Source of the DNA: Enoplolaimus lenunculus
Taxonomy: Eukaryota; Nematoda; Enoplea; Enoplida; Thoracostomopsidae
DNA length: 64,000 nucleotides
Direction of reading: 5' to 3'
NCBI GenBank assembly: GCA_030248215.1
Contig: JASANG010002614.1
Location: 93,385-157,384 of the forward strand
Shown here: positions 9,031-64,000 of the stretch, in pieces
Numbering within the stretch: position 1 is the stretch's first letter
How the letters are laid out: each line of letters starts with the position of its first letter
Notes under the pieces: generated by a model
Database searches by the model: none
What the model was told of the DNA's origin: nothing
Seen by the model: only the letters and a program-made list of their open reading frames with translations
Made by a program: the position numbers and the translations under genes

Positions 9031-9128
9031 GTACTCGCCACACCACCCATTAAATATAGTGAAGTCGCTTTTAGCGTCTTGTTTCTCACTTATTTCTGAA
9101 AACTAGCAAACATACTTGTACTTTTATC

Positions 9129-11933
9129 ATGAATTCATCATACGACTACCACCATGAGCAAACTGTAAAAGCTTATTCGTCGTTTGTTCGAAATTCGCGA
9201 GCAATCGGAGTAGTTTGGGCAATTTTGTCCGTCTGTTTTGCAATAATAATCGTTTTGGTGTTCATTCAATCCCAATGGATTTCTCATACCGAATTGTCGC
9301 CAACACAAGGATACGCTGGACTTTATCGGCATTGCTACGACTCGGGCACCGGCGTTGATGGTCAAGTTTGCGTTGGCAGTTTGGGCGAATTTTCAAAGTT
9401 GCCTTCGGACGCGAATAAAGCTGCAACGGTGTTCATTGGCTTAGCGGCAATATTTACACTTCTGGCAATTGCGTGCATTGCGCTGTTCGTTTGTGTTCCG
9501 GCAAAAACTGTATTTCTATTGTGCGGATCAATACAATTTTTAGCGTGTAGGTTTTAACTTATTAGTTATAGAAATGTGTACCTATATGTTTCTAGTTACA
9601 TACAGCTCGTAACAACCGGGTCATAACAGTATTATAAGCATATTATTAAGCCTAGCCTAAGCCTAAGCAAAAATAAATGTAAAGCTTAAACTTTGGCAGT
9701 GCTGCAGAAAAACGATATGCCTCTGATCTTTGCATGATAAGAGTCCGTAAGTGGATAGAGTCCCTAAACCCTAATTCGAGGCCATAAATGTCAATATTCC
9801 TGTTTGTAGCGCACAAATGACTCCAGGACCAAATAAAGTTGGGTTCAAAACTTTAAAGCGGTCTTGTACATTCCTAGGTATAACCTTGCATTATCGCTCA
9901 AGCTATTGACACATGTCAAATAAATGTTTAATTCAACGGATAGTTGGAATGCCGAATATATCAGTAACGAAGGACGGCGGAGGATGGGTTAAAAATAAAT
10001 ATCAGTCCCCCCTCCTTTTCGTGTCACTGCATTAACTAATTTGTGCCTAGACTAGGTTACGGTATCCTGTAGTGACCCGAATAAGAGGGGTGGACTGATA
10101 CTTATTTGGCCTTTCCAGAGCGTACCCCCCTGTTATTCGGTTACGGACTGTTATTTATTTTCATCCCGTCCTCCGTCACCCTTCGTTTTACTGATATTTG
10201 TCCGGTATTGCAATTATCCGTTGAATTAAACATTTATTTGTCTTGTATCAAAAGCGTGACCGATAATACAAGGTTATACTGAGGAATTACTTTCAAAACT
10301 TGAGTACGCTTAAAGTTTCGAACTCAACTTTATTTGTCCTAGAGTCATTTATGCGCTACAATTAGGAATAATTGACATTTATGGACTTTAATTAGGGTTT
10401 ACGGACTCTAGCCGCTTACGGACTCTTATTAGGAATACGTACTTCTATTGATTGGGACTCAAAATAGGGACCCCGTCTTATTACCCTCCTATTCGGGTCG
10501 TTACAGTAGTGTTTTAATTTCATACGGAAACATTAACTATTTTAGTTATTTGCATTTTGGTTGGAGTCCTAGTGTTCCCTGTTACATGGTCAACTGATGT
10601 TGTTCGATTGATTTGTGGTCAGAATGCAGATGCATATGAATTGGGCTCATGCGCTGTTCGATGGGCGTATATTTTGGCGATAATTGGCGTTTTTGACGCG
10701 TTACTGCTGTCAATTTTAGCGTTTATTTTATCAGTGAGGCAGCCAAAGCCTGTTCTAACCACGAATGGTAAGCAGGATGTAACCGAATATCCGTTTCCGG
10801 TGGACATCAGAATCTGTTCCGCTTTAAGTAAAAAATTAGTGTCTGGTTTGACGCATTATTGCTTTCGATTTTAGCATTTATTTTATCAGTGAGGAAGCCC
10901 AAGTCTCTTCTAATCACTAATGGTAAGCAGGATTTCACCGAATATCCAATTCCGGTGAACATCAGAGTCTGTTCTGTTTCAAGTAAAAAATCACTGTCTG
11001 ATTCCGTATCCGGTAAAAATCACTGTCTGATTCCGTATCCGGTAAAAATCACTGCCTTATTCCGTATCCGGTAAAAATCACTGTCTGATTCCGTTTGCGG
11101 TAAAAATCACTGTCTGATTCCGTATCCGGTAAAAATCACTGTCTGATTCCGTATCCATTGCTTTTAAAATTCGTTTACACCCTGAAAGTGATATGACACT
11201 CACGGGTCAAAAAAATTGAATACATTTACAATAGCACAGGGGTATTCGAGGTATTAGGTTTGAAACCAGAGCGGAACCACAGTGTCCATCACAGCAGAGA
11301 AATAGTGTAGTTATACCAGAATCTCCGGCAAAACGTCTGCCAGAGCCGGCGGTAGACCTCGGTTGTACCAGTATTGTGCTATTTTAAGCAAAATTAGTTC
11401 AAAATTAATTATTTTTCGTTTTTTCATCCAGTTGCTAACATTTTACATTGATAAGCTGTTTAAACTCGATTTCTTTGTCAGTTGACCACAACGATAGAAT
11501 ACACTTCTAAAAATCATAAGCAATGTTTGAGTTTCACAATTCGACTACAGTTATTTCTGCAGGCTACGACATTTTTTGCGACAATTGCAGTTTGTTGCTT
11601 TAAAGTGTTCTGATTTCATTAATTAGTTTTGCTGTTACGCCACGAAAATTGTGCATACCCAATAAGACTTGTTGTTTCACAATCTCAAATTTGGCTAAAA
11701 TTTCAGCTTCAGTTACCGGTGGAGGTCATGCAAACACGGCGTACACTGAATCGCTAACACGCGATGGTCGAATCAGCGGTGCAATGGTGTTCACCGGCCA
11801 AACTGGCGGAACCCCTGCGTCTCCTCACGCTCTTGCAGCGTCTGAATCACAGTTTTCTGCGGCAGACTTGTCTCAAAGCGGTATCGGCTCCCAACAGTAT
11901 TTAGGAGGATACGTGCGAAATTATGAAGCTTAA
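9129..11933 (+). CDS. LHFPL: LHFPL3/4/5-type tetraspan membrane protein, 288 aa
   Basis: Three exons: 9129-9546, 10546-10767, 11707-11933; GT-AG introns, both phase 1, total 867 nt. The start is the first in-frame ATG (MNSSYDYHHEQ). SRAIGVVWAILSVCFAI (TM1, about 25-47) is the LHFPL signature. The first extracellular loop has GYAGLYRHC (C69) and C81, followed by TM2 (about 98-122), TM3 (about 126-150) ending VFPVTW, loop cysteines C163 and C175, and TM4 from VRWAYILAIIGVFDALLLS. Known relatives act in hair-cell mechanotransduction (LHFPL5) and GABA-A receptor complexes (LHFPL4); the role here is not shown. The cytoplasmic tail of about 85 residues is Gly/Ser/Thr-rich and longer than in vertebrate paralogues. 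Intron 1 holds inverted family E MITEs, intron 2 a partial exon-2 duplication, and a MITE begins about 18 bp after the stop. Confidence 0.94.
9738..10026. mobile_element. MITE family E, truncated inverted copy in LHFPL intron 1
   Basis: The sequence from GAGTCCGTAAG to TTTTCGTGTCAC matches family E in the orientation opposite to the neighbour at 10072-10503. The end carrying the GAGTCCCAATC block is missing. Confidence 0.75.
10072..10503. mobile_element. MITE family E, full copy in LHFPL intron 1
   Basis: It runs from GTGACCCGAATAAGAGGGG to CCTATTCGGGTCGTTAC. The inverted repeats extend outward as CTGTAG...TTACAG. It ends about 40 bp before the exon 2 acceptor at 10545. It has no coding capacity. 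Confidence 0.8.
10695..11004 (+). repeat. Tandem 155-bp duplication of LHFPL exon 2 3' half plus intron 2 start
   Basis: Bases 10850 to about 11004 repeat 10695-10849 with scattered differences. Both copies encode the end of TM4 (LLLSILAFILSVR) and keep the donor AATGGTAAGC (10768 and 10923). The second copy has no acceptor of its own. Using its donor by read-through from the first copy would meet a stop (at about 10874) before reaching it. Confidence 0.88.
10985..11157. repeat. 29-bp minisatellite in LHFPL intron 2
   Basis: At least five copies of a unit of the form TCCGTATCCGGTAAAAATC plus ACTGTCTGAT follow directly on the 155-bp duplication. The unit resembles the tail of that duplication (AAGTAAAAAATCACTGTCTG), so it probably grew from it. 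Confidence 0.85.
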
Positions 11934-38800: not shown

Positions 38801-39456
38801 TGTTACCTACTAATCAAATGGCGCCAAATTTATTAGTTTTGTCTAGTATAGCTTGCACAAAACATATATTTTTGACTGTGGAGTGGAGTTTGAGAAGTGG
38901 TCGGCAAAGGTACAATCGTTCTCATATCCTTGGGTTGCAATTGCAATGGATAACCAAATCGTTGCTCAACACTGAAGCCCTATTCAAAAGTGCAGCAAAA
39001 ACTTGCACGTGCAACTTGTATGCGCAAGCTTGGTAAAGCAGCTTCGAAGTCCTTGCAGCTCCAAATAATTGACCGAAATTCATCATATTAAATTTAATTC
39101 ACACGTGTAAACGAAGTTGCAAGTCGCTCGAATTTCGAATTTTTATTGCTCAATCATATGAACACGATAGTGTTCATATATATGATTCGCGCATCTCAAG
39201 CGCGTATTTCCAGTTTAGTTCGCATGTTGGTGCCCAAGTAATATCAGACCTGTATCGTTTAAATTTTGTACACTGGTATCCTGGTACGTAGGGAATATTT
39301 GTGCCAAAGGATTTTGTAAACCAGTGTGGTCTTCAATAGTTACGGTCAAAAAACTCCATACAGAAAGTGCACGAAATTTTTCATTTTGGTTCAACACTTT
39401 TTACACGTTAGCTATGTAATTTTACGATTATAACTTTCACCACTTTATAGAGTTTA

Positions 39457-41605
39457 CGGTTGGTTTCACCCCAACGGTTGGTTTCACCCCAACGGTTGGT
39501 TTCACCCCAACGGTTGGTTTCACCCCAACCGTTGGTTTCACCCAAACGGTTGGTTTTGCCCCAACGGTTGGCTTCAGCTCAACGGTTGGTTTCACCCCAA
39601 CGGTTGGCTTCACCCCAACGGATGGTTTCACCCCAACGGATGGTTTCACCCCAACGGATGGTTTCACCCCAACGGATGGTTTCACCCCAACGGATGGTTT
39701 CACCCCAACCGTCGGTTCCACCCCAACGGTTGGTTTCACCCCAACGGTTGGTTTCACCCCAACGGTTGGTTTCACCCCAACGGTTGGTTTCACCCCAACG
39801 GTTGGTTTCACCCCAACGGTTGGTTTCACCCCAACGGTTGGTTTCACCCCAACGGTGGGTTTGTCGCCAACGGTTGGTTTCACCGTCCCCAACGGTTGGT
39901 TTGCCCCAACGGTTGGTTTTGCCCCAACGGTTGGTTTTGCCCCAACGGTTGGTTTCACCCAACGGTGGTTTCAGCTCAACGGTTGGTTTCAGCTCAACGG
40001 TTGGCTTCACCCTAACGGTTGGTCTCACCCCAACAGTCGGTTTCACCCCAACGGTTGGTTTCACCCCAACGGAAGGTTTCACCTCAACGGTTGGTTTCAC
40101 CCCAACGGTTGGATTCACCTCAACGGTTGGTTTCACCCCAACGGTTGGTCTCACCCCAACAGTCGGTTTCACCCCAACGGTTGGTTTCACCCCAACGGTT
40201 GGTTTTGCCCCAACGGTTTGGTTTACCCCAACGGTTGGTTTCACCCCAACGGTTGGTTTCACCTCAACGGTTGGCTTCACTGGTTTCACCCCAACGGTCG
40301 GTTTCACCCCAACGGTTGGTTTTACCCCAACGGTTGGTTTCACCCCAATGATCGGTTTTACTCCAACGTTTGGTTTCACCTCAACAGTTGGTTTCACCTC
40401 AGCGGTTGGCTTCACCCCAACGGTTGGTTTCACCCCTACGGTTGGATTCACCTCTACGGTTGGTTTCACACCAACGGTTGGTTTTACCCCAACGGTGGGC
40501 TTCACCCCAAAGGTTGGTTTCACTCCAACGATTGGTTTCACCCCAACGATTGGTTTCATCCTAACGGTCGGTTTCACCCCAACGGTTGGTTTCACCACAA
40601 CGGTTGGTTTCACCCCAACGGTTGGTTTTACCCCAATGGTTGGTTTCACCCCAACGGTTGGTTTCAACCCAACGGTTGGTTTCACCCTACACAGTCGGTT
40701 TCACCCCAACGGTTGATTTCACCCCAACGGTTCGTTTTACCCCAACGGTTGGTTTCACCCCAGCGATCGGTTTTGCCCCAACGGTTGGTTTCATCTCAAC
40801 GGTTGGCTTCACCTCAACGGTTGGCTTCACCTCAACGGTTGGCTTCACCCCAACGGTTGGTTTCACGTCAACGGTTGGTTTCACACCAACGGTTGGTTTT
40901 ACTCCAACGGTGGGCTTCACCCCAACGGTTGGTTTCACTCCAACGATTGGTTTCACCCCAACGATTGGTTTCATCCTAACGGTTGGTTTTACCCAAATGG
41001 TTGGTTTAACCCCAACGGTTGGTTTCACCTCAACGGCTGGATTCACTCCAACGGTTGGTTTTACCCCAACGGTTGGTTTTACCCCAATGGTTGGTTTTAC
41101 CCCTACGATTGGTTTCACCACAACGTTTGGTTTCACCCTAACCATTGGTTTCACCCCAACGGTCGGTTTCATCCCAACGGTTGGTTTCAACCCAACGGTT
41201 AGTTTCAGCCCAACGGTTGATTTCACCCAACGGTTGATTTCACCCCAACGGTTGGTTTTATCCCAACGATTGGTTTCACCCCAACGGTTGGTTTTACCCC
41301 AACGGTTGGTTTCACCCCAACGGTCGGTTTCATCCCAACGGTTGGTTTCACCCCAACGGTTGATTTCACCCCAACGGTTGGTTTCATCTCAACGGTTTGT
41401 TTCACCGCAGTGGCTGGTTTCACCCCAGCGGTTAATTTCACTCCAGCGGTTAATTTTGCCCCAGACGTTGGTTTCACACTAACGGCTGGTTTCACCTCAA
41501 CGGTCGGTTTCAGCCCAAGGGTTGGTTTTACACAAACGGTTAGCTTCACCGCAACGGACGATGTCACCCCCATCGTTTGCTTCGTCCCAACTCTTGGTTT
41601 CATAC
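39457..41605. repeat. 18-bp minisatellite, about 2.15 kb
   Basis: About 119 tandem copies of CGGTTGGTTTCACCCCAA, all in one orientation. The centre (39720-39860) is nearly perfect and the right edge (after 41400) is degenerate. The period is a multiple of three, so long open frames appear on both strands (VKPTVG on minus; FTPTVG, VSPQRL and HPNGWF on plus). Each unit contains the near-palindrome CCAACGGTTGG. I call this satellite rather than a gene: frames are open in all phases, breaks occur at array irregularities and there is no flanking exon structure. Confidence 0.95.
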
Positions 41606-49680: not shown

Positions 49681-49749
49681 ACCGGCCGCATTTTCTTATA
49701 CCTAATGCCGAAGTCGAACACTTACCCTTGACATTAATTTTATGTGAGG

Positions 49750-50010
49750 GAAGTCTACAGAAGATCCGTAGCAGGTACAATTTTCGGATACCGTATCCAC
49801 ATCGAGAAACTGGGGGAAGTCTACAGAAGATCCGTAGCAGGTACAATTTTCGGATACCGTATCCACATCGAGAAACTGGGGGAAGTCTACAGAAGATCCG
49901 TAGCAGGTACAATTTTCGGATACCGTATCCACATCGAGAAACTGGGGGAAGTCTACAGAAGATCCGTAGCAGGTACAATTTTCGGATACCGTATCCACAT
50001 CGAGAAACTG
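49750..50010. repeat. 66-bp tandem repeat, four copies
   Basis: Units start at 49750, 49816, 49882 and 49948 with GAAGTCTACAGAAGATCCG and are virtually identical. The period equals 22 codons, so frames stay open on both strands (minus FLDVDTVSENCTCYGSS or VSRCGYGIRKLYLLRIF; plus SLQKIRSRYNFRIPYPHRE). There is no spacer variation, so it is not CRISPR-like. It appears to be a recent amplification. Confidence 0.92.
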
Positions 50011-51256: not shown

Positions 51257-51471
51257 CACTGCAAAAAATAGTGAGTCAAATTGACTCTGTCCGAAATATG
51301 CTTTTCCGGACTACACAAACTGAATCAAATTCGGCTCCGCCAGAGTCAAGTTTGACTCACCCGAGTCGCTCAGTTAGTCGAATTTGACTCCGGTCGAATT
51401 TGACTCTGTTTATGCAGTCCCGAAAAGCCTATTTCGGAAAGAGTCAATTTGACTGATCATTTTTTGCAGTG
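51257..51471. mobile_element. MITE family C, copy 3
   Basis: CACTGCAAAAAATAGTGAGT at the left and TGATCATTTTTTGCAGTG at the right are inverted. The interior resembles 38067-38271. Confidence 0.85.
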
Positions 51472-51671: not shown

Positions 51672-51905
51672 GGCCCATGTTACTTTAAGGGGCGTAAAGG
51701 TTTCTGGTGGGCCTATAAAAGAGTGGGTTTAGATTCTAGATTACAATTTTTTGCTTAGGCTTAGGTTTAGGTTTACGTTTAGGTTTAGGTTTGTGCTTAG
51801 GCTTACGCTTATGTTTTAGGCTTAGGAACACATTTTTGCACCGCTTAGGCTTAGGTTTAGGAATACGCTTAATCTACTGTTACGCCCCTAAAAGTAACAT
51901 TGGCC
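51672..51905. mobile_element. MITE family B copy
   Basis: It starts GGCCCATGTTACTTTAAGGG and ends CGCCCCTAAAAGTAACATTG, inverted. TTTCTGGTGGGCCTATAAAA precedes a long TTAGGTTTAGGTTTACG hexamer core. Confidence 0.85.
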
Positions 51906-60687: not shown

Positions 60688-60870
60688 GGGCTCATGTTAC
60701 TTTATGGGGCGTCCAGGTTTCTGATGAATCCATAAAAGAGTGGGTTTAGATTCTAGATTACATGTTTTTTGCTTAGGCTTAGGCTTAGGCTTTCGAACAC
60801 ATTTTTGCAACGCTTAGGCTTAGGAATACGCTTAATCTACTGTTACACCTCTTAAAGTAATATTGGCCGA
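60688..60870. mobile_element. MITE family B copy
   Basis: GGGCTCATGTTACTTTATGG at the left and TTAAAGTAATATTGGCC at the right. TTAGGCTTAGGCTTAGGC is in the core. Confidence 0.8.
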
Positions 60871-61343: not shown

Positions 61344-61568
61344 TTGGGTCCATGTATAGAACAGGGCCGGAACAGTAGTATAAGCGTATTTCTAAGAAGC
61401 CTAATCCTAAGCCTAAGCCTAAGCGTATGGATGAGCCTATTCTTAAGCCTAAGCCTAAGCCTAAGCCTAAGAATAAGGCTAAGCAAAAAAAATTAGTCCA
61501 AAGCTTAAACGGACTCTATTATAGCCCCTCTGGAAAACGATCCGGCCCTGTTCTATACTTGAGCCCAA
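61344..61568. mobile_element. MITE family A copy (best preserved)
   Basis: The left end is GGGTCCATGTATAGAACAGG and the right end CCTGTTCTATACTTGAGCCC, near-perfect inverted ends. Two hexamer runs (AAGCCTAAGCCTAAGC) lie inside, one of four or more perfect units. Confidence 0.85.
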
Positions 61569-61796
61569 ACTTGTGAGAATTGATTCAGACAGTTGTAAAT
61601 GCTGTCGATAATCAAATGCGTAGCAAGGAATTTTATGGTTTGTGAAGGGCCACAGTAAAAGTATAAGTTATTACAGTTTTTACCTGAAACAATTGAGTTT
61701 TCGTTACCTTCGGAGGACAGTACGTGCCTATTGGTTCGCTTACTGGATGCGCTTTGGATTTCAATGTAATGACATAATCAATCTGATACTAACTTT

Positions 61797-63256
61797 GGCC
61801 GATATTACTTTTAGTGCTGTAACAGTAGATTTTAAGCATGTTCCTAAGCTTAAGCCTAAGCGTTGAAAAAGTGTATTCCTAAGCCTAAGCGTTGAAAAAA
61901 GTGTATTCCTAAGCCTAAGCCTAAGCGTTGAAAAAAGTGTATTCCTAAGCCTAAGCCAAACCGTTGAACCTAAGCCTATGCGTTGAAAAAAGTGTATTCC
62001 TACGCCTAAGCCTAAGCGTTGAAAAAAGTGTATTCCTAAGCCTAAGCCTAAGCGTTGAAAAAAGTGTATTCCTAAGCCTAAGCCTAACCGTTGAACCTAA
62101 GCCTATGCGTTGAAAAAAGCGTATTCCTACGCCTAAGCGTTGAAAAAATGTATTACTAAGCCTAAGCCTAACCGTTGAACCTAAGCCTATGCGTTGAAAA
62201 AAGTGTATTCCTAAGCCTAAGCCTAAGCGTTGAAAAAAGTGTATTCCTAAGCCTAAGTGTATTCCTAAGCTTAAGCGTTGAAAAACGTGTATTCCTAAGC
62301 CTAAGCCTAAGCGTTGTAAACAGTGTATTCATAAGACTAAGCTTAAGCGTTGAAAAAAGTGTATTCCTAAGCCTAAGTGTATTCCTAAGCTTAAGCATTG
62401 AAAAAAGTGTATACCTAAGCCTAAGCCTAAGCGTTGTAAACAGTGTATTTATAAGCCTAAGCCTAAGCGTTGAAAAAAGTGTATTCCTAAGCCTAAGTGT
62501 ATTCCTAAGCTTAAGCGTTGAAAAAAGTGTATTCCTAAGCCTAAGCCTAAGCGTTGTAAACAGTGTATTCATAAGCCTAAGCCTAAGCGTTGAAAAAAGT
62601 GTATTCCTAAGTCTAAGTGTATTCCTAAGCTTAAGCGTTGAAAAACGTATATTCCTAAGCCTAAGCCTAAGCGTTGTAAACAGTGTATTCATAAGCCTAA
62701 GCTTAAGCGTTGAAAAAGTGTATTCCTAAGCCTAAGTGTATTCCTAAGTTTAAGCGTTGAAAAAGGTGTATTCCTAAGCCTAAGCCTAAGCGTTGTAAAC
62801 AGTGTATTCATAAGCCTAAGCTTAAGCGTTGAAAAAAGTGTATTCCTAAGCCTAAGTGTATTCCTAAGCTTAAGCGTTGAAAAAAGTGTATTCCTAAGCC
62901 TAAGCCTAAGCGTTGTAAACAGTGTATTCATAAGCCTAAGCCTAAGCGTTGAAAAAAGTGTATTCCTAAGCCTAAGTGTATTCCTGAGCTTAAGCGTTGA
63001 AAAAAGTGTATTCCTAAGCCTAAGCCTAAGCGTTGTAAACAGTGTATTCCTAAGCCTAAGCCTAAGCGTTCAAAAAAGTGTATTCCTAAGATTAAGTGTA
63101 TTCCTAAGCTTAAGCGTTGAAAAAAGTGTATTCCTAATCCTAAGCCTAAGCGTTGTAAACAGTGTATTCATAAGTCTAAGCTTAAGCGTAAGCAAAAATG
63201 TAGTCCAGAATCTAAACGTACTTTTTTACAGACCCACCAGAAACCTGGACGAAACA
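61797..63256. repeat. TTAGGC-like hexamer array with 119-120-bp higher-order repeat in a family B MITE
   Basis: The left edge (TTGGCCGATATTACTTTTAG, then CTGTAACAGTAGATT) and the right edge (GTAGTCCAGAATCTAAACG, then ACCCACCAGAAACCTGG) match the two ends of family B copies such as 51672-51905. Between them about 1.4 kb is built from CCTAAG hexamers, AAGCGTTGAAAAAAGTGTAT spacers and AAGCGTTGTAAACAGTGTAT spacers. The latter recurs every 119-120 bp from about 62311 to 63151 (eight times). Frames stay open on both strands because 120 is a multiple of three. Confidence 0.9.
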
Positions 63257-64000
63257 TGCGTCGGTAAGTTTTATTTCAATTATTTTGCTTATTCAAATTT
63301 CTTGGTTTAATAATGTTAAATTGATTTATGTTAACAATCAAGAGTGGCAATCAATTTTTGACACAATTGTGTGTCTCAGTAAATAAATTTTAGTTTCAGA
63401 AAATTCGTAGCTTTCAGTAAAGGTTAACTGGTTTAATGAAGCGTTGATAGTTAGCAATTGGTACTGGAGGAAATTATTAAATCTGAAAGGTTATTTACCA
63501 CAGTTCATGTACCCTACTGTAAACTTAACACTCTCTGTCACGTAAACACGCTTACTTTCCTACCAAAATTACAATCACCGGAAACACACAATCCATCAAA
63601 TTTCCGAAAACACACAATAACTGAATTTTCCGAAAACACAATACATGAAATTTCTCATGCAAAACAGCCCGCAATAGCTAGCCTCTTTATCCACATCAAA
63701 AATACAAGAACTTCCCAAAGTTATTGACACACCCGAGGGCTAAAAGCCCTTCACACTCATTCAACCGCCACTCAGTACATTCGCTTGCTGACCGTCAACT
63801 TCTTAACCACCCTGCGCTGCTGTCGCAGACTATATGCAATCAATTTGAGTCCCGAATAACATAGACACCACCAGCGCCACAGCTTCCTCAGTCCGCGAGG
63901 AGTTAAATGAAATTGAAGCTCAGCGTCAAAGTCTCTCCAATCGTCACTATGACCATCATTCACCCAAAGGATTTTGCTCTAGCTCAAACCAATTCATATA
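63257..64000. other. Right edge: short repeats and an unassigned GC-richer ORF
   Basis: 63540-63660 has imperfect units of about 30 bp (TTTCCGAAAACACACAATA). A minus-strand frame at 63772-63963 (NDGHSDDWRDFDAEL, ending VVKKLTVSKRMY) is distinctly GC-richer than its surroundings. It could be the last exon or C-terminus of a gene or transposon starting beyond the window. I do not recognise it. Confidence 0.35.

Follow-up and report, generated by a model that had tools for sequence, protein, structure and literature searches.

Accounts of the route from transposon to satellite DNA usually rest on a single locus or a handful of them. Family B, a MITE family of the nematode Enoplolaimus lenunculus, resembles several of the systems described, as far as the available text of the sources presents them. 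In miDNA4, a Tc1/mariner MITE of Xenopus (Scalvenzi and Pollet 2014, cited through PMC12628747 and PMC9659126), a satellite motif lies inside the element, as in family B, either as a single monomer or as an array whose length varies; microhomology between direct repeats was proposed there as the cause, and homogenised arrays were proposed as well. In Tetris / TIR-220 of Drosophila virilis, amplification within the element seeds satellite-like arrays of up to 66 copies, and the amplified repeats, as in family B, were already part of a non-autonomous element (PMC4079207). Xstir and its MITE in Xenopus share with family B tandem repeats derived from internal MITE sequence (PMC12628747), and BrickBuilt of Porphyromonas gingivalis shares a minisatellite placed between the leader and tail segments of a MITE (PMC4596501).

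The window analysed here is a stretch of 64,000 nucleotides of E. lenunculus (assembly GCA_030248215.1, contig JASANG010002614.1), in which an earlier note had pointed to a tandem array at 61797-63256 and had read it as the birth of a satellite from a transposon core. As seen in Table 1, this array is a family B MITE whose core has expanded, bounded by a P-end on the module side and by a Q-end. On its + strand, the window has 129 occurrences of the hexamer CCTAAG, compared with about 13 expected from base composition, and 79 of the 166 hexamers counted in both orientations lie within the array. Open frames of 120-200 aa crossing the array are repeats of its period, and no gene is claimed for them.

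Table 1. Coordinates of the expanded element and of the MITEs compared with it (positions in the window)
Feature	Position	Strand	Basis
Possible left copy of a decayed 8-bp target duplication	61789..61796	+	by eye; weak
P-end (module side): terminal inverted repeat and subterminal stretch of a family B MITE	61797..61852	+	alignment to the B copies of the window
Left part of the array: irregular linker-hexamer units of 29/30, 36 and 55 bp	61853..62238	+	unit split, TRF
Eight higher-order copies of 119-120 bp, each 18+30+36+36	62239..63197	+	unit split, pairwise identity, TRF
Q-end: subterminal stretch and decayed terminal repeat	63198..63263	+	alignment; end read by eye
Short family B MITE of the ordinary one-linker form	60688..60870	-	sequence, unit split
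Second short family B MITE, used in the edge comparison	51672..51905	-	sequence
Neighbouring family A MITE, with different ends and a like hexamer core	61347..61565	+	sequence; family A end query

Other features of the window can also be recorded. A near-palindrome at 51257-51471, with 77-nt arms that are 87% complementary, CACTGCAAAAA-like ends and TCAAATTGACTC motifs, represents another foldback-like or MITE family. A 2.1-kb array of an 18-bp unit occupies 39456-41557 (117 copies, 84% match) and is open in several frames, and a 66-bp unit is present at 49748-50010 in four copies with a reported match of 100%, a recent duplication. An open frame at 9075-9554 has a match (E 6e-23) to Pfam PF10242, the lipoma HMGIC fusion partner-like family, which points to an animal. 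The Rfam search of the window returned only a weak tRNA match, far from the array. Elsewhere in the assembly, locus L079 (C2683:2261-2760) carries the 3' part of an SSU rRNA gene, the end of which is conserved and of eukaryotic type while the variable region is strongly divergent or expanded. A standard six-frame search of the genome for COX1 gave no hit.

The repeated module of the array consists of GTGTATTC, a run of CTAAGC hexamers and then GTTGAAAAA, and can be written as GTGTATTC(CTAAGC)nGTTGAAAAA; that is, a linker of 17-18 nt is joined to mostly two to six hexamers of the TAAGCC/TTAGGC type. The hexamer core has indeed grown to about 1.4 kb, as had been proposed, but the unit of growth is this module of linker plus hexamers and not the hexamer alone. 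In the left third of the array, from about 61871, modules of 29/30, 36 and 55 bp are mixed without any 120-bp period, whereas modules of 18, 30 and 36 bp recur in a fixed order from 62239 onward, the final higher-order copy running into the array edge. The 119-120-bp period of the earlier note was recovered by TRF (62180-63189, period 120, 8.4 copies, 93% matches, together with the 240-bp multiple). Cut by hand, seven of the eight copies measure 120 bp and one 119 bp, with pairwise identities of 0.90-1.00 (mean 0.95), and the copies starting at 62479 and 62838 score 1.00. TRF matches reach 93% at period 120 but 70% at period 36, and the self-match of the array is 0.76 at lag 120 compared with 0.67 at lag 36. 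It can be seen that the multi-monomer unit is more identical than its monomers are among themselves, as in a higher-order repeat.

Both edges of the array match the ends of family B, as the earlier note had stated. The left edge (from 61797) aligned to the P ends of the two window B copies with scores of 68 and 72, and the right edge (about 63195-63251) to their Q ends with 72 and 68, all far above the best of 500 shuffles preserving base composition only (24 and 25 on the left, 26 and 35 on the right). The termini of B elements are GGCC, with GGCCNATGTTAC ends, and the ends beginning GGCCNATGTTACTTT are inverted on both sides, as in the terminal inverted repeats of a MITE. The right terminal repeat of the window element is decayed: by eye, about 8 bp are apparently gone after CCTGGACG, the final bases being degenerate, which places the end of the element near 63263, an outer limit uncertain by a few bases. 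A putative target duplication, CTAACTTT / GTAAGTTT (the latter at 63264-63271), agrees at 6 of 8 positions, a weak match read by eye; the script could not place the ends of this element, and its duplication stands outside the scripted scoring. The end score of the window element, 0.62 of the maximum, is the third lowest among 33 arrays.

The ordinary form of family B is much simpler. Read on the other strand, the copy at 60688-60870 consists of a terminal repeat, hexamers, a single GTTGCAAAAATGTGTTC linker, hexamers and the second end, so that the short MITE holds one copy of the module found in the array. Across the genome the linker pattern has 4,076 matches and its reversed control none. 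Those of the first 100 matches that lie on contigs C1-C3 gave 20 regions, in which a looser linker motif defined 27 clusters. Both B ends accompany 22 of these clusters and the Q end alone 5; none lacked both. A single linker is found in 22 of the 27 clusters, two or three in 4 and at least four in 1, the largest (L072) having 17, which indicates that short MITEs are usual and arrays exceptional. This sample was chosen by linker and not by ends, so its counts refer to linker-bearing copies; B copies without any linker exist at L052 (3396) and L053 (430). Short B copies, of about 150-230 bp, are present in high copy number. A 28-mer of the P-subterminal stretch has 10,728 genome matches at up to 3 mismatches and a 52-mer of the Q-end 2,503, with none for either reversed control; these figures are not element counts, because the P stretch can itself occur in several copies at one place. 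It is tandemly repeated at C5:669369-669618, with a spacing of about 55 bp, and also at L040:3251-3520. Parts of the MITE other than the module can thus be amplified too.

Expanded copies were sought by likeness to the window array in the whole assembly (296 Mb, 3,185 contigs), with a query of which about 55 bases are P-end sequence. At least 81 matches were found, and in the 39 regions covering those listed, the window's own included, 42 clusters have four or more linkers. Both B ends are present at 31 of these arrays, the P end alone at 4 and the Q end alone at 6, and the sole array without a B end is that at L052. The origin from a family B MITE is borne out by these counts, with at least one B end at 41 of 42 arrays, and by the commonness of the one-linker form. 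It was also asked whether most loci have arrays unconnected to the MITE, and this was not found (41 of 42 arrays and 27 of 27 sample clusters have a B end); a free satellite merely touching a MITE is rejected by the same counts. The 8-bp flanks agree at 7 or 8 positions in 10 of the 17 arrays in which both termini could be placed, which indicates that expanded elements sit between true insertion marks; the corresponding figure for testable copies of the linker-picked sample is 11 of 17. The longest extracted element is 1.7 kb, in a count that arrays exceeding the examined regions, or unassembled ones, would escape. The window array is one of dozens in the genome, hence no single birth was captured. 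The earlier interpretation is in part supported: the derivation from a transposon core is better founded than was thought, and the case is less singular, with the array still internal between MITE ends.

Spacing between linkers follows a ladder. In 28 arrays, 472 of 493 linker-to-linker spacings equal 5 or 0 modulo 6, the commonest being 29, 35, 41, 47 and 53 or 30, 36, 42, 48 and 54, as results from a linker of 17 or 18 nt plus a whole number of hexamers. This regularity shows that exchange preserves the hexamer register, although it is partly expected because the search demanded hexamers on both sides. Best repeat lags in the 27 arrays with at least 6 linkers were 29, 35, 36, 41, 42, 54, 70, 71, 76, 82, 120, 158 and 159; lag 35 was the commonest, and lag 120 was confined to the window array.

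The arrays are also locally homogeneous. Among 521 linkers from 28 loci, the mean edit distance per 24 nt is 1.87 within loci and 4.08 between them, and none of 200 permutations of locus labels reached the observed value (mean 3.95, minimum 3.69). For 220 of the 521 the nearest other linker lies strictly at the same locus, for 270 there is a tie, and for 31 it lies at another locus; many linkers are of a common type, so the homogeneity is strong on average and not absolute. This greater likeness within loci points to repeated growth in place. Pairs of the 27 arrays share a median of 0.14 of their 18-mers, with a maximum of 0.59 (L022 and L047), and the window array shares at most 0.18 with any of the other 26. 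Likeness of arrays is weakly related to likeness of their ends (Spearman -0.20, over pairs that are not independent); together with the variants shared at some loci, this weak trend suggests that some expansion may predate transposition. Our reading is that the arrays grew and were homogenised independently, locus by locus, starting from a common short form, and that some shared variants are older.

Several accompanying signs were looked for. Mean edits to the nearest unit are 0.70 for first units, 1.41 for last units and 0.27 for inner units, and the greater divergence of edge units is not significant (p 0.26 and 0.10). Arrays are not simply old copies, their median end score being 0.803 of the maximum (33 arrays) compared with 0.798 for 21 short elements (p 1.0), nor is linker number related to end decay (Spearman -0.02, p 0.92). 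With neither edge divergence nor a greater age of arrays, two expected signs of slow growth driven by exchange are missing. As single-stranded DNA, the short MITE does not fold more strongly than its shuffles (z -0.34).

Building on the observed MITE edges, spacing ladder, common short form, local homogeneity and target duplications around expanded copies, we propose, with a probability of roughly 0.85, that the array is a non-autonomous MITE of family B, a family with 8-bp target duplications, and that the internal module of this element was multiplied where it stands. In the short element a single linker is flanked by short hexamer runs (CCTAAG on one strand, TTAGGC on the other), and the runs on either side are direct repeats. 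Slippage or unequal exchange between them would copy the linker with a whole number of hexamers, so that spacings would step by six, and further exchange within one copy would homogenise the array into a local type. Where a group of neighbouring modules became the unit of exchange, a higher-order repeat such as the 120-bp one of the window could arise. Such expansion would have happened separately at many loci. The molecular process may have been slippage, unequal exchange or gene conversion, and growth probably followed insertion.

It may be asked whether a few master copies were already expanded, the present arrays being their transposed descendants. Expanded copies keep their 8-bp target duplications (10 of 17 testable) and so could have inserted in expanded form, and linker variants and 18-mers are common to some loci. 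Linkers are nevertheless locally homogeneous, array periods differ by locus, and little 18-mer content is shared among arrays, by that of the window in particular, and such descent is considered unlikely. Far less probable is a chance meeting, in which the MITE captured, or inserted into, a satellite array existing elsewhere. Capture of a pre-existing repeat has been proposed for miDNA4 in the available text of PMC12628747, and the array at L052 has no B end; against this, the ordinary short copy has the module once, and all 27 clusters of the linker-picked sample have a B end. The length or order of the array might also have been made by the assembler, given that the assembly is fragmented and that the array lies near a contig end, but similar arrays, having both ends and flanked by intact target duplications, occur deep inside many contigs and point changes distinguish the units within an array, which leaves this explanation hardly any weight.

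The hexamer itself raises another explanation, in which the tracts are telomere-type DNA that telomerase, or telomere recombination acting on breaks, added or lengthened, with the MITE as no more than the site. According to the available text of PMC9071541, TTAGGC is the telomere repeat capping the chromosomes of most nematodes. In the present genome the 42-mer (TTAGGC)7 has 4,351 matches and a 120-base TTAGGC pattern 1,127, compared with none for (TTAGGG)7 and (TTAGG)8. A perfect TTAGGC/CCTAAG run of 468 bp, at L058:1347-1919 (contig C2, about 715.8-716.4 kb), lies between family A-like ends as judged by eye. In family B, however, the linker is multiplied along with the hexamers, which telomerase would not do, and the long runs listed on contigs C2, C56 and C81 are internal; this telomeric explanation of the tracts appears improbable. 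Family A, whose ends are unlike those of B, has the same kind of hexamer core and seems to grow pure hexamer tracts. A pure TTAGGC run at L012:1480-1660 (contig C1, about 396 kb), flanked by CACTACA and TGCAGTG-like sequence, is possibly a third type of carrier; it follows closely on an exon similar to a potassium-channel tetramerisation domain (Pfam BTB_2, 20.5 bits, slightly under the cut-off of 21.4). It is a rather doubtful suggestion that families A and B, with their unlike ends, spread the TTAGGC core as a generic seed of expansion, A tending to pure hexamer tracts and B to linker-hexamer modules and private higher-order repeats; were TTAGGC the telomere repeat of this animal, these would be internal telomere seeds. 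In that case thousands of internal seeds would exist as possible templates for break healing, new telomeres or breakage, and the elements would form a large reservoir of internal telomere-type DNA. The telomere link of the core is a lead only.

With respect to classification, the inverted termini, the fixed 8-bp length of the target duplication and the short, numerous copies are those of a MITE, the open frames of the window array following its period. The duplication length is also that of the hAT superfamily. Target duplications of 8 bp are found in superfamilies other than hAT as well, and hAT termini are typically CAGGG-like. The GGCC termini of family B are unlike that consensus, and the family is not filed as hAT. 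Tc1/mariner elements duplicate TA. Unlike miDNA4, which belongs to that other superfamily, family B has 8-bp target duplications. Nor is the window array a classical satellite, since it measures about 1.4 kb and a B end persists on one side or both in 41 of 42 arrays. The window array is still enclosed by MITE ends, has the size of a minisatellite and shows a higher-order period.

The literature search, whose reach took in few subscription papers, found no MITE with a TTAGGC core. Compared with miDNA4 as presented in the available text (PMC12628747, PMC9659126), family B differs in that the monomer is itself a linker with a variable number of hexamers and that a higher-order period is found at some loci. 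Tetris is foldback-like, with 220-bp repeats in its terminal repeats and free long arrays seen by FISH, according to the text available (PMC4079207), whereas the module of family B is about 30-40 bp and central and element ends are still present on nearly all arrays seen. For Xstir, the accessible text of PMC12628747 proposes a stem-loop route from two neighbouring elements, and family B needs no second element. BrickBuilt is bacterial, with 23-nt units and few copies per genome in the text of PMC4596501 at hand. The hexamer core offers a simple reason for the proneness of family B to growth. In one genome, this family presents the single-module form together with dozens of arrays at different stages, each locally typed, and comparison of its loci could measure how fast and in what ways arrays are born, units change in length and higher-order repeats form. 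Family B clearly exemplifies a route to new satellite DNA that had been described before, and its particular features among the known systems are the composite monomer and the higher-order arrays.
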